This document shows, piece by piece, positions 1 through 6,944 of a stretch of 37,954 nt of DNA. How positions within the stretch are numbered: position 1 is the stretch's first letter; each line of letters begins with the position of its first letter. The stretch is from positions 1 to 37,954 of the forward strand of contig JAFPXU010000087.1 in assembly GCA_017394605.1 (NCBI GenBank). The letters run 5' to 3'. The stretch comes from Clostridia bacterium (lineage in GTDB: Bacteria; Bacillota_A; Clostridia; Christensenellales; CAG-138). The notes under the pieces are model-generated. The model was not told where the DNA came from and made no database searches. It was given only the letters and a program-made list of their open reading frames with translations. A program made the translations under genes and the position numbers.

Positions 1-1
1 C

Positions 2-127
2 AATGGCAAGGCGGCTGAGGCAGCGAGAAGAATGGGAAAAACTATATCAGTGATTTGCAGTGAATATGGTGATGGTTTACCAAAAGTAAAAGCGCATCAT
101 ATTGCATATGGGACACATACCAAATGA
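2..127 (+). CDS. C-terminal fragment of an unidentified protein (5' end outside window)
   Basis: An open frame enters from the left edge and runs 41 codons to a TGA at 125-127. The visible tail is basic and reads like a small helical, possibly DNA-binding end (it contains NGKAAEAARRMGK and ends in YGTHTK). I do not recognise the family. No start codon or ribosome site is inside the window, so this can only be the 3' end of a longer gene or a remnant. It lies at the edge of the AT-rich segment. Confidence 0.35.
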   Translation, partial: NGKAAEAARRMGKTISVICSEYGDGLPKVKAHHIAYGTHTK

Positions 128-805
128 AACTGCTTTTTCTTGAACGTCCCGACAAAAATGGTGCATCGTTCAACTGATTCGGAATAGATGTGCCGGTTGC
201 CAGTGCAAATCCGTTATGGTTATTCGTACCACTTTGAGTGTTCGTAAAGAATTTACGAGCGCTCTTTTTTTGAATCCGTTATTACTACTCGTATCAAACA
301 AGACCGGACCTTCGATCTTTTCTTTTTGGAAGTGGTCATTTGAAATAGTTGCCGGGAATTGTGGCTTGCTGTTTCTTCTGCCCATTCAATTGCTGATTTT
401 TTGCATAGCTTTTTCTCTACGGCTATATCTCTATGTTGCCATATTCTGCGAAACTGCTTAGATGGACACATCTGGAATAGAAGTATCCAATGTCACGATA
501 GAAAAAGCAGCAGAACACTTCTGCATACTTGATATCGTTTACAACAACCACCTAAATATCGCCACATAGGCTAATGAAATAAATCTACGAGGTGTAATAG
601 TTTATTATTTACAGCAGCATGAACTCTCCCGAACAAATAATAGACTATAAAACTGAGAAATTGGTATAATAATTTAAATGACCCGCTTAGAAACACGCTA
701 GAATTGATGTTAATTCTTTTTTCGTATCAAAATACGTTTTTAATCCTTAAGATAAGATAAACCAAAAAATATAAATCATTCAGTTATAGAGGAGATTTCC
801 TAGCT
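128..805. other. Gene-poor AT-rich stretch
   Basis: No convincing gene is present. The short open frames on both strands lack ribosome sites and recognisable domains. Visible structure includes an imperfect direct repeat (207-230 and 272-295, both starting around AATCCGTTAT), a promoter-like site at 641-670, and a small hairpin followed by five T at 723-741 in the presumed leader of the next gene. Confidence 0.5.
641..670 (+). promoter_or_regulatory. Sigma-A type promoter candidate for the GT-C-like gene
   Basis: TAGACT at 641-646, an 18-base spacer and TATAAT at 665-670. The -10 is extended (TGG directly before it). It would give a leader of about 130 bases before the TTG start at 806. The weak hairpin with a T-run at 723-741 lies inside that leader and might attenuate. 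Confidence 0.45.
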
Positions 806-2964: not shown

Positions 2965-3681
2965 TCACGGTCGGGGAATCCGATACACGGAAACAGATCC
3001 GTTGTCCGTTTCAGGGTCCGCCGATAATCCTCTCCTGCGCCGCGTCAGATAAATCAGTCCGCTCTTTTCTGCTTTGATATGCTCATCCACGGATATGTCC
3101 AGAGAAAACCGCTCTGAAACATTGATCACGCGTGTGCTGCCTGACACCTGTTCCCTTTGAATCCCAGCCCCATAGGAAAGGTGGGTATGTCCGTGCAGAA
3201 AAAAACGCGGATGGTATTGATCAATCAAATCCCGAAACGCCTCAAAGCCCCTATGGGCGTAATCGTCAAGATCGCCAATGTCTCTCGGAGGCGCATGGGC
3301 GATTACAACGTCCACTCCCCCAGCCTTTTTTATGGCATAGCGGAGCCTTGCGATCCTCCACTGCATCTGTCTTTCAGTGTACTGATGAGGTCCTTTGTTA
3401 TATAAGAGGCAGCCGCCGAGTCCGAGTATCCGTAAGCCGTTGTAGATGACAAGATGTCCATCGATATCCTCACAGCCCTCCGGTGGCGTTATATCATATC
3501 TTCCGTCGTGATTCCCGTGAACATACAGGAGTCTCGCGTGGCTCATCGTCACGAGAAACGTAAGATACTGCGCCTTTAAGTCTCCGCAGGAGAGAATGAG
3601 ATCATATTCGTCCAGCCTTCCCCGAACGAAATAATCCCAGAGCGCCGGGCATTCCACGTCTGCAACCGCCAATATCCTCAT
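2965..3681 (-). CDS. Calcineurin-like metallophosphoesterase
   Basis: The 238-residue protein has the binuclear-metal phosphoesterase motifs in order: ADVE (residues 7-10, in place of the usual D-x-H), GDLK, GNHD, AHAPP and GHTH near residue 165. An acidic residue at the second position of motif I occurs in a subgroup of Firmicute phosphoesterases, as far as I recall, so it need not mean loss of activity. No signal peptide is seen, so it should act in the cytoplasm on an unknown phosphoester, possibly a nucleotide. The start overlaps the stop of the preceding gene as ATGA, and GGAGGAG lies just upstream of the ATG, so the two are probably translationally coupled. The partner is a nucleoside-binding-type protein, which makes nucleotide or nucleoside signalling or salvage a reasonable inference. 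Confidence 0.85.
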   Translation of the reverse strand: MRILAVADVECPALWDYFVRGRLDEYDLILSCGDLKAQYLTFLVTMSHARLLYVHGNHDGRYDITPPEGCEDIDGHLVIYNGLRILGLGGCLLYNKGPHQYTERQMQWRIARLRYAIKKAGGVDVVIAHAPPRDIGDLDDYAHRGFEAFRDLIDQYHPRFFLHGHTHLSYGAGIQREQVSGSTRVINVSERFSLDISVDEHIKAEKSGLIYLTRRRRGLSADPETDNGSVSVYRIPRP

Positions 3682-5627
3682 AACTCCTCCGCTGATTCGG
3701 GAAGAATGCGCTCTCTGTGTACACCAAGCTCGCGCACCAGTGTCCGGGACATTGGGAATATCTCATCATACTCCGGGATATGCCCTTCGACGTATTCTGC
3801 AAGGCGATCCATCTTGAGTATCTCAAGAGATGAAAGTTTGTTTTCTCCGTCCGAAATCAAGGTTCCGTCCTGTGCCGCGAGTCTCTGTCCGAAAGGATCA
3901 AGCGTGCCGTTTTTCAGCATTCCCATCAGGGTCTCCGCGAGTTTCCTGACTCCTGAGGGCACATGCTCGGAAAGCGTAACATCTATCACGCCCGAATCCA
4001 TGCCCCACCAGTAGTTGACTGCTTGGTCTCTTTTCTCCGGACTCCCGGATAGAATCGAGCGAACGATATTCTCGTACAGTTTTCCCCACATCCAGCAAGG
4101 TGAGGCAAGCGGTTTCAAACTGCCGCCGTTTTCCATGAGGAACGTACCGTATTCCCCGCGCATCAGATAATGCACATCAGGAAGAGGAATGTCCCGGTTC
4201 GAAATGACACTGACGCCCTTTGCCTTAAGAGTCCCTATGCAGTCAACGTTCGTGCAGGTCCATTCCAGCAACACTTTCGCTCTCGGATTCGTCATTCGTA
4301 CACCGAGCGCGAAAGCGTTGATCGATGCGGGCACACCAAGAATGGGGTAGGAGCCCACATAGCCAACGAGATCGTTTTCCGCAAGCGCTCCCGCAATAAC
4401 GCCGGTAATGAACTTTCCCTCATATGTTCGGCAGTAGTAACTTTTTACGCTTGATAACGGCTGGCAGGCCGAGCAGTTATAAAACCTGACTCCTGGGTGT
4501 TTCACTGCCGCTTTAAGCGTCTCGTTAAACATCGGGGGCGTCGTGGTAAAAACAAGTTCCGCTCCGTCGGATACGGCCTTTTCTATCATTTCTTCTACCG
4601 TTTCGCCGGTATCGGCATGAAAATAATGGTTTACGGCAACAGAATCAGAAAGAGCCTCCGAAAGATGCTCGGCACCCTCCACATGGCCCCTTGTCCAGGT
4701 GCTGTTATCCGGATCCCTGTCATACAGAAAGGCAACTGACAAATGTTTCGGAACAGCGGAAATGATTTTCTGGATAACACTCTTCTTTTCCTCACTTGAG
4801 GGGAGCGTTTCGACCTTTATCGCTTCCGGCTCGGAAACAGTCTTTACATCACCCCAAAGTCCGGACAGAGCTTTTTTCAGCTCCATTTGAGACATGTCGG
4901 CAAACTGATCGTAAGAATACACCTTGAGGAAGAGCAGCAGAGCGTCCTCCGGATCAATTCCTTCTTTCACACCTCCGAGAGAATTGAACGCTTCCTTAAA
5001 GAAATAGTAGTTCGAGACAAGCGTTCTCTTTTCAGTATCTGACCATCTTTCTCCGGTTTTCTTTCCGATTGCTGAAAGCAGCCGTGAGTAATCACCGGGA
5101 TTTTTAAACTGAATATCCCAAATACCGGTTTCCTTCTGAAAATCCACAAATTCACGATAAGCCTCATATGTTGGACCGGACATATCGGAATGCGTAATCC
5201 TCGAAATGTGCGCGGAAATTCTGGCCGCGCCGAAGTATTTCAATACACTCACGCGTTTGTTTCCTTCGACAACATAAAAATTGCCGAGATACTCCACGCA
5301 CTCGATAGCGTCCCGAATACCTGTATCGGAAAGATGCGCCTCGCAAAGCGACATCCACTTCATGGCAAACTCGCTGCCCGGACTCAGCAGCGGAAAAAAG
5401 GAGGCGGAAAACGCGTTTGTCCTCCCGGCGGACTTTATCCCGATAATACGGTCTATAGGAATATCCGAAACAGGCAGTTCCTGAACGGATATACTGCTGA
5501 ATTCCGATAGTATCTCGTCAAGCACGGCCGGGAACGGATCCATCCCGAGCGCTTCCCGTTCTTTCTTTTCCTTCAAACCCATACGCTGGGCTTTACTATA
5601 CTCGTCAATGATAACTGTCGAAGCCAT
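3678..5627 (-). CDS. ParB-like domain fused to BMP/PnrA-type nucleoside-binding domain
   Basis: The 649-residue protein starts with a polar segment, not a signal peptide or lipobox. Residues about 55-150 resemble a ParB/Srx-like fold, including a GRTNAF element and the stretch FYVVEGNKRVSVLKYFGA. From about residue 290 to 600 it resembles the BMP family (PnrA/TmpC) of purine nucleoside-binding ABC lipoproteins: strand FLYDRDP, then NCSACQP and GVIAGALAENDLVGYVG. BMP proteins normally sit outside the membrane with ABC genes beside them; here there is no secretion signal and no permease or ATPase. A cytoplasmic nucleoside sensor or regulator is therefore more likely than a transporter subunit. 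The ATG has AGGGA upstream, a good promoter lies at 5658-5686, and the stop overlaps the phosphoesterase start. Confidence 0.8.
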   Translation of the reverse strand: MASTVIIDEYSKAQRMGLKEKKEREALGMDPFPAVLDEILSEFSSISVQELPVSDIPIDRIIGIKSAGRTNAFSASFFPLLSPGSEFAMKWMSLCEAHLSDTGIRDAIECVEYLGNFYVVEGNKRVSVLKYFGAARISAHISRITHSDMSGPTYEAYREFVDFQKETGIWDIQFKNPGDYSRLLSAIGKKTGERWSDTEKRTLVSNYYFFKEAFNSLGGVKEGIDPEDALLLFLKVYSYDQFADMSQMELKKALSGLWGDVKTVSEPEAIKVETLPSSEEKKSVIQKIISAVPKHLSVAFLYDRDPDNSTWTRGHVEGAEHLSEALSDSVAVNHYFHADTGETVEEMIEKAVSDGAELVFTTTPPMFNETLKAAVKHPGVRFYNCSACQPLSSVKSYYCRTYEGKFITGVIAGALAENDLVGYVGSYPILGVPASINAFALGVRMTNPRAKVLLEWTCTNVDCIGTLKAKGVSVISNRDIPLPDVHYLMRGEYGTFLMENGGSLKPLASPCWMWGKLYENIVRSILSGSPEKRDQAVNYWWGMDSGVIDVTLSEHVPSGVRKLAETLMGMLKNGTLDPFGQRLAAQDGTLISDGENKLSSLEILKMDRLAEYVEGHIPEYDEIFPMSRTLVRELGVHRERILPESAEEL

Positions 5628-5686: not shown

Positions 5687-5926
5687 GAGAAATCACTCGC
5701 GTAAACACAGTCTCTGCGATGTTTAGCGCATAAAGAGGAACCACAATCTAATCGATCATCGGATACGTTCGGATACTGAAACTGGTAATTGATGTAACAA
5801 GCTCAATCCCGGGAATTCCTGGCAGTTTTGATTTCATGCACAGAACGCCAAAAACAGTCATTGAACCTTCAGATACGAAAAAAATCACCAAATCGGTATT
5901 TGTTTTCACTGAATCTGCGGTAGAAT

Positions 5927-5954
5927 TTGCCGCACATTTATTTTACAATATAAT
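5927..5954 (+). promoter_or_regulatory. Promoter of the LysM peptide gene
   Basis: TTGCCG at 5927-5932, a 16-base spacer and a perfect TATAAT at 5949-5954. It lies about 60 bases upstream of the start codon. The rest of 5687-5926 shows no gene. Confidence 0.7.
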
Positions 5955-6013
5955 CGTAAGATGAAGATCATCTTAATATAAAAAGCAATATACGAATTAA
6001 GGAGGATCATACA

Positions 6014-6253
6014 ATGGATTTGAAGGATCTCGTAGAAGCAACTGCTGAAGACCTGAAGGGTGTCGCGGGCGGCGCGCTTGCAACCAGATATTACATCTAC
6101 ACAGTCGTAAAAGGTGACACGCTCCACAAAATCGCCACAAGGTTCGGAACAACCGTAGACGCAATCTACAACCTGAACCGTGACAAGATCAAGGACAAGA
6201 ACCTGATCAGGATCGGCTGGAAACTGATCATCCCGGTTACCGAAATCAAATAA
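6014..6253 (+). CDS. Small LysM-domain protein with a double-glycine leader-like N-terminus
   Basis: The 79-residue protein has two parts. Residues 1-20 resemble the leader of class II bacteriocins and related ABC-exported peptides: charged, helical and ending in Gly-Gly (19-20), with Leu14 and Val17 at positions -7 and -4 and Asp13 at -8 relative to the cut. Residues about 27-74 are a single LysM repeat (YTVVKGDTLHKIA at the start, IRIGWKLIIPV at the end), which binds N-acetylglucosamine polymers such as peptidoglycan. There is no Sec signal peptide. The inference is export and trimming by a peptidase-containing ABC transporter, then wall binding; no such transporter is in the window. AAGGAGG lies at ideal distance, and the gene has its own promoter and terminator, so it is expressed alone. 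A cytoplasmic LysM protein is the alternative. Confidence 0.85.
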   Translation: MDLKDLVEATAEDLKGVAGGALATRYYIYTVVKGDTLHKIATRFGTTVDAIYNLNRDKIKDKNLIRIGWKLIIPVTEIK

Positions 6254-6267
6254 TCAAAACAAACTAG

Positions 6268-6301
6268 AACAACGGTTCGATTTCTCGGACCGTTGTTTTC
6301 T
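6268..6301 (+). terminator. Intrinsic terminator of the LysM gene
   Basis: A 13-bp stem (6268-6280 with 6285-6297, all pairs canonical except one G-T wobble) closes a TTTC loop. It ends in a short T-rich tail, 15 bases after the stop codon. Confidence 0.85.
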
Positions 6302-6473
6302 GTTCTAGTTTATAAAGGCTATTTTCGCAAGCTACAGTCTTTTTTCCCACAAAAATGAATAATAATGATACAATATATATTACTGGCTTTTGTATCCCTT
6401 CTCAGTGCTATTCAGTCCTCTGTTGGGGCAGCACTGGCTATCTGTTGCAATTCCTGAGAAAGGCGGTCTTCCC

Positions 6474-6944
6474 ATGTCTCAGTTATCACTCAGCGACATT
6501 GAATATTCCAGCAGAAAAAAGAAAACGAAACGCGATTCCGTTCTTCAAACAATCGACAACCTTCTCCCATGGTCAGAATGGATCGAGTTGATTCGGCCTT
6601 TTTATCCCGAAGGAAAACGCGGACGTCCCCCGATTGCAATCGAAACGATCCTGCGGATGTACATCCTGCGTACGCTTTACAAACTGTCCGACACATCCGT
6701 TGAAGACGCGGTGTATGACAGTTATGCGATGCGCAGTTTTCTCCAGATCAATTTCTTCACCGAGCAGGTTCCCGATGCAACGACACTCAGAAGATTCCGT
6801 TATCTTTTGAGCAAGCATCGTCTTTCGGAACGAATCGCTTCAGATTTTGCAGCCGCCGTGAAACAGGCGGGGCTTGTTCTTCGTCGCGGAACGATTCTGG
6901 AAGCAACCGTCATTTCTTCAGCTCCTTCAAGAAAAAAGCAATGA
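6474..6944 (+). pseudogene. Truncated IS5-family transposase
   Basis: From the ATG at 6474 (AGAAAGGCGG upstream) the 156 codons match the N-terminal half of IS5-group DDE transposases such as InsH: a Ser/Lys-rich start, LLPWSEW, IRPFYP, GRPP, ETILRMYILRTLYKLSD, VEDAVYDSYAMR, PDATTLRRFR, and the first catalytic-region strand ending in EATVISSAPS. Full-length relatives have about 320-340 residues, so the rest of the DDE domain is missing. After the stop at 6942-6944 no frame continues the family. Open sequence extends upstream to 6390, but the family start and the ribosome site favour 6474. I found no matching terminal inverted repeats, so this is a dead remnant. Confidence 0.85.

Follow-up and report, generated by a model that had tools for sequence, protein, structure and literature searches.

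A small gene in a 37,954-nucleotide stretch of Clostridia DNA (the window) very probably gives rise to a tiny protein in which a single cell-wall-binding domain, a LysM repeat, sits behind a bacteriocin-type export tag. Rumen bacteria have a family of genes for mini-proteins of this kind, this gene among them, and a common, switch-like promoter precedes several of the members. As the best overall explanation, we consider it probable that the product is a secreted, cationic single-LysM mini-protein that is trimmed and exported by an NHLM system, partly linked to LytTR-like regulation and active in modulating the wall. The gene and its immediate features are as follows.

6014–6253, + strand: double-glycine (GG)-LysM precursor gene, 79 amino acids plus stop, backed by its family
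6014–6073, + strand: double-glycine leader, residues 1–20, read from the sequence and, across 71 relatives, from the pattern of −4, −7, −12 and GG
6074–6250, + strand: predicted mature peptide, 59 amino acids from Ala21, given a putative cut after Gly20
6098–6235, + strand: LysM domain, residues 29–74, matched by PF01476 and β-α-α-β in the structure model
6000–6005, + strand: Shine–Dalgarno site AGGAGG, read from the sequence
6261–6311, + strand: terminator-like hairpin, −24.2 kcal/mol, z = −6.05

A sequence-only reading of this DNA had described a 20-residue double-glycine leader followed by one LysM domain in the 79-residue ORF at 6014–6253 (+), and this was borne out. The leader (MDLKDLVEATAEDLKGVAGG, residues 1–20) has Leu at −7, Val at −4 and Gly-Gly at −2/−1, with a net charge of −3; the 59-residue mature part has a computed net charge of +6 and pI of 9.9. 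No Sec signal was seen by eye in the protein, and the window gave no match in Rfam. Residues 29–74 matched PF01476 with 58.4 bits (gathering cut-off of 20.9, E = 7 × 10−16), and the same family matched all 18 members of set A1. No killing domain was found in the Pfam scan of the window protein. LysM and SH3b domains are wall-binding in known proteins. The AlphaFold2 model (17 sequences, mean pLDDT of 71.9) was better defined at residues 31–70 (~79–84) than in the leader (~57), and its LysM part showed a β-α-α-β fold. Foldseek returned zero matches at E ≤ 0.001, the top ones being LysM proteins at E = 5.6 × 10−3, and a profile search of solved structures gave Ecp6 and LytE as the best matches. 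The ribosome site claimed for the gene is present as AGGAGG. The claimed terminator is supported by the stable hairpin at 6261–6311, although a simple terminator scan did not pick it up.

Loss of the Gly-Gly motif in homologues, which the sequence-only reading had counted against its own proposal, proved to be the exception. Among the matches listed in a first search, 16 of 17 relatives kept GG, with P0018 as the outlier. The wider set comprised 121 proteins (P0002–P0122, with P0002 identical to the window protein), for which a 17-member profile gave 1,242 matches, 120 of them listed; here, 72 of the 78 LysM relatives of up to 100 amino acids had a GG leader among the matches listed, a proportion biased toward GG members as the query profiles include the leader. 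The six short relatives lacking GG were the double-LysM pieces P0048, P0055, P0069 and P0116, together with P0018 and P0104. The last of these has a LysM domain close to those of the GG-LysM proteins and a lipoprotein-like start in place of the leader, which is also a predicted path out of the cytoplasm.

ComA-like C39 peptidases read GG leaders at positions −4, −7, −12 and −15. The window leader has GG at −2/−1 and hydrophobic residues at −4, −7 and −12. The leaders of 71 relatives, very divergent in overall sequence, carried V/A/I/T at −4 (71 of 71), Leu at −7 (67) and L/A/I/V/M at −12 (70), and position −15 was often hydrophobic. The LysM pattern is complete across the relatives, and Cys is present in only 20 of 72 mature parts. 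Models of NHLP/Nif11 leaders were absent among the families listed (25 of 26) for the 18 A1 members at E up to 1. A phage origin was considered and rejected: seven phage records were matched, six over just 56–65% of the query and the seventh over 81% at 47% identity, within a cell-wall hydrolase, and the matches in three viral contigs start at residue 29 or 31.

The nearest genome found was the MAG RGIG2640 from goat omasum, rumen (G001). Window positions 3098–5606 correspond to contig C38 of G001 at 75% nucleotide identity, with a GG-LysM orthologue alongside in the same place. The orthologous protein is 95% identical (4 of 79 residues differ), and the two genes are separated by 25 nucleotide changes in synonymous codons and seven in amino-acid-changing codons. 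The other flank of the window gene holds a frame with a transposase domain and, besides, a lipoprotein-like amidase (PF01520) and a protein of the NlpC/P60 type; frames similar in appearance to the latter two were seen by eye at the orthologous locus, and the wall theme among these neighbours may be chance. Just 3′ of the GG-LysM gene, the frame at 6474–6944 (156 amino acids tested) contains only a DUF772 transposase domain and is apparently a shortened transposase. Window positions 1–231 are 100% identical to G001:C38:10631–10861, though the adjoining 2.5 kb is only 75% identical, and a 49-bp part of them recurs in G001:C39 at 88%; this segment is perhaps mobile or recently exchanged DNA. A further GG-LysM gene (L002, G002:C195) was found in a MAG that carries the label Lentisphaeria; its contig, 4.8 kb long, is possibly mis-binned Clostridia DNA. 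In a search for further GG-LysM genomes, some match was present in 34 of 61 related genomes and, at the level of the class, in 106 of 391; among the matches listed, only those of G001 begin at the leader start (positions 1–3), save one G001 match beginning at position 13.

The cargo behind GG leaders in G001 extends beyond the orthologue. Its GG genes comprise seven GG-LysM genes (the orthologue and six paralogues, of the kind that the sequence-only reading had proposed to look for) and three GG-SH3b genes. A small-ORF scan of 44 G001 stretches (844,135 nt, ~40% of G001), eight of them picked around GG genes or the exporter, found 12 Shine–Dalgarno-preceded small ORFs with an acidic GG leader versus 0–7 for 19 control dipeptides; with the acidity filter off, GG gave 18 versus 4–31 for the controls and so was not in excess. 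The 12 ORFs were seven LysM, three SH3b-like and two unrelated frames, with the start of the GG-LysM gene at L134 being a chosen one where a longer start is possible. One SH3b protein was tested and matched PF08239 with 39.7 bits (cut-off of 27), a genome-wide profile of G001 again returned the same three full-length GG-SH3b genes and every one of the 13 proteins related to the SH3b ones in the database had a GG leader. No small, same-strand, membrane-spanning-like frame was found within 600 bp of 10 of the 11 GG genes, the window gene included. At the remaining one, a 129-amino-acid frame on the same strand (L158:16871–17260) that contains a strongly hydrophobic segment begins 226 bp after the GG-SH3b gene and may be either chance or a membrane partner.

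The sequence-only reading had also called for a C39-peptidase ABC transporter, and one of NHLP/NHLM type was located in the relative. Peptidase_C39 occurs in exactly one place in G001, in a C39-ABC transporter of 728 amino acids that scores over the TIGR03796 (NHLM_micro_ABC1) cut-off (906.7 versus 853.3), and the next gene (821 amino acids) scores over that of TIGR03797 (715 versus 709.4). This adjacent pair is present in G001 and absent from the window. The HlyD-like model TIGR03794 found a short upstream frame in G001, matched at model positions 1–54 only and below the cut-off (35.7 versus 156.2 bits); it was over the cut-off in none of the five NHLM genomes, the other four giving the same partial picture. 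Across the 61 related genomes, C39 was over the cut-off in ten and NHLM ABC1 in five. The G001 exporter operon lies apart from the GG genes and carries none of the repeat sites described below (best score of 10/18), and no modification enzyme was noticed next to the ABC pair among the frames seen. Haft et al. (2010, PMC2887384) tied the NHLM exporter to GG-leader precursors by phylogenetic profiling.

Small GG-leader genes adjoin the ABC pair in the other four NHLM genomes (L173–L176 in G013, G034, G036 and G035, respectively), many of them with CxxC pairs, and about ten stand in a row at L176. CxxC is common to 11 aligned GG genes from these genomes, where some other GG genes lack it. A Pfam scan of seven of these 11 gave zinc-ribbon matches that were all under the cut-off, so that 'zinc-ribbon-like' is used here as a description only. 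The proposal that a wall-binding peptide is exported by a peptidase-ABC transporter thus gains support at the level of sequence, through the family-wide leader, the NHLP/NHLM exporter of the relative and the GG-SH3b genes with the same leader type and promoter.

Upstream of the window gene, the following elements were identified.

5886–5894, + strand: direct repeat 1, CACCAAATC, with the same layout at five G001 sites
5907–5915, + strand: direct repeat 2, CACTGAATC, 12 bp after repeat 1, from aligned upstream regions
5944–5949, + strand: −10-like box TACAAT, 28 bp past repeat 2, common to the orthologue and paralogues
5927–5954, + strand: alternative σ70-like promoter TTGCCG-16-TATAAT, which the orthologue does not conserve
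5958–5974, + strand: inverted repeat AAGATGA-AGA-TCATCTT, 5′ of the gene, found by eye and also in the upstream regions of L128 and L129

The strong promoter of its own that had been ascribed to the gene stood only in part. The TTGCCG-16-TATAAT element scores 10/12, but four such sites were found in the scan versus 2.1 expected, and neither the orthologue nor the paralogues conserve TTGCCG, so this element was rejected as the chief means of control. Given this lack of conservation, and with the upstream repeats and TACAAT shared, the region is better read as a probably activator-dependent promoter. Direct repeats in a 9-12-9 arrangement, 28–29 bp before a −10-like box, occur at the window gene and at five G001 sites, each just 5′ of a GG gene. 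Four upstream regions (window, L129, L128 and L131) were inspected by eye to derive the repeat motif. Scanning the window and the 44 G001 stretches with it gave six matches of at least 19/24, every one upstream of GG genes; four of these are training data, as the motif was derived from them, and two are new, at the SH3b genes L131:13029 and L158:16373. Below the six came one place at 18 and seven at 17, and ten shuffled motifs never scored above 18. A degenerate pattern, written once all six sites were known, found five exact sites across all of G001, plus a single two-mismatch place (the reversed control found one), and its new information is that the rest of G001 has no further exact site. 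A second SH3b gene (L131:13338) begins 45 bp past the end of the first, and for this reason six of the ten G001 GG genes are counted as covered. The site is absent at the other four, all among the seven GG-LysM genes (L130, L132, L133 and L134). In paralogue L128, both arms of the inverted repeat have changed together (AAGGTGA-AGA-TCACCTT), as if pairing counted.

A candidate regulator of these promoters adjoins one of the GG genes. A Response_reg–LytTR gene (L131:10225–10950; LytTR with 25.4 versus 22.6 bits) starts 85 bp after the L131 GG-LysM gene; G001 has two LytTR genes, the other being far away, and only this one adjoins a GG gene. No partner sensor was found beside it, and the PF14501 kinase search gave one match, apparently an ordinary sensor kinase. 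According to a study of LytTR bacteriocin promoters (PMC6193735), 9-bp direct repeats lie mostly 12 bp apart shortly 5′ of the promoter, and in S. mutans the repeats stand 4–11 bp before the −35. The sites described here likewise have paired 9-bp repeats 12 bp apart, shortly 5′ of the promoter, that retain the published ACC, but the letters after ACC differ and CTT is not kept; the putative targets here are wall-binding mini-proteins.

We propose that a signal would act through a LytTR-type regulator to turn on the GG-LysM and GG-SH3b genes, with the regulator probably activating the paired-repeat promoter of the window gene and of six of the ten family members in G001. The acidic leader would dock on the C39 domain of the NHLP/NHLM-type ABC exporter, whose peptidase domain would cut after Gly19-Gly20, and the exporter would move the mature 59-residue domain out of the cell. 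Once exported, the LysM domain may sit non-covalently on peptidoglycan. Its likeliest use would be wall modulation, in which glycan sites of the producer or of its neighbours are occupied; by analogy with fungal LysM effectors, it might shield against wall hydrolases or act as a decoy for them. The weakest link in this proposal is function. A coating, shielding or decoy role is favored over killing because the protein lacks any catalytic or toxin part and because, at 10 of the 11 GG genes, no small membrane frame of the immunity type lies close by on the same strand.

The wall-targeted toxin suggested by the sequence-only reading found no support for the same two reasons, and a bacteriocin in which the LysM domain docks on the peptidoglycan of rivals and the peptide inhibits them is unlikely in our judgment. 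Such a peptide would share with class II bacteriocins the leader pattern, the small cationic mature part and the LytTR-like promoter layout, and the exporter is itself named for bacteriocins. Against this, a single LysM domain makes up the mature part apart from a short stretch at the N terminus and a tail, the genes are scattered and the sole membrane-like frame close to a GG gene on the same strand, that at L158, is maybe there by chance. An antibacterial LysM protein has been reported in the 'high-mass bacteriocin' EHM (PMC12466687), but that protein has 473 amino acids, two LysM domains and, as its catalytic part, an NlpC/P60 domain, and the words 'leader' and 'double-glycine' do not occur in the text of the paper. 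The product could instead link cells or anchor partners on the wall as an adhesion or biofilm factor, not a shield. LysM/YG surface proteins add to biofilm in Lactobacillus reuteri (PMC3873254), and the promoter type is the same for SH3b and LysM paralogues; the L. reuteri proteins, however, have a second (YG) part and the GG-LysM product is single-domain, and we consider adhesion improbable.

Lower still is the probability that we assign to a peptide pheromone or to a RiPP precursor modified before export. GG leaders and LytTR regulators are known in peptide signalling, and modified peptides have been linked to NHLM exporters (PMC2887384), but the complete LysM pattern kept in relatives is unlike a variable core, Cys is scarce in the mature parts and the frames seen by the G001 ABC pair include no apparent modification enzyme. 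The Gly-Gly could also be incidental to a protein that remains cytoplasmic, and the dipeptide control, which favors GG only with the acidity filter, lends this some weight. Yet very different leaders all keep −7, −4 and GG, and the SH3b relatives, whose domain like LysM is wall-binding, uniformly carry GG as well. Chance GG as the whole story was rejected on this family conservation, and we give a cytoplasmic protein very little credence.

The favored secreted, wall-modulating mini-protein resembles several known systems in part. With the NHLP/NHLM system (TIGR03796, TIGR03797 and TIGR03794; PMC2887384), it shares the two-gene ABC pair of G001 and GG-leader cargo. The leaders here, in contrast, are short (~15–25 residues) and not nitrile-hydratase-like or Nif11-like among the families listed, the LysM or SH3b domain that serves as cargo looks unmodified and the HlyD-like gene of G001 is truncated. 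Fungal LysM effectors (Ecp6, 4b8v; Zymoseptoria 6q40) are likewise small, secreted and LysM-built; Ecp6 was the top PDB profile match, both Ecp6 and 6q40 were among the fold matches and the title of 6q40 refers to the protection of hyphae against chitinase. These proteins are fungal, chitin-binding and secreted by another route, and the likeness would lie in possible function only, not in kinship. A GG-leader LysM/SH3b family of this kind was not found described in the open-access literature searched, and a term search of the main text of a Hungate1000 bacteriocin survey (PMC13289728) gave no mention of LysM, SH3 or NHLP. Each part is known; as far as could be seen, the combination of a bacteriocin leader and exporter with wall-binding cargo and a LytTR-like promoter is undescribed.

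A bacteriocin-type leader or a peptidase-ABC exporter is usually taken as a sign of an antimicrobial or a pheromone. Conserved wall-binding cargo, partly behind a common LytTR-like promoter, would uncouple the export route from antimicrobial function and would point to overlooked secreted wall-modulating proteins of rumen Clostridia. More tentatively, and with less than even confidence, we suggest that some gut Clostridia may have an inducible wall coat, in which a LytTR-type switch turns on dispersed LysM-only and SH3b-only genes whose NHLM-trimmed, secreted products occupy peptidoglycan. If true, this coat would be a bacterial counterpart to fungal LysM effectors. The same exporter branch in related genomes would then carry other mini-domains, some of them zinc-ribbon-like, and bacteriocin export machinery would offer small folded-domain proteins in general a way out of the cell.
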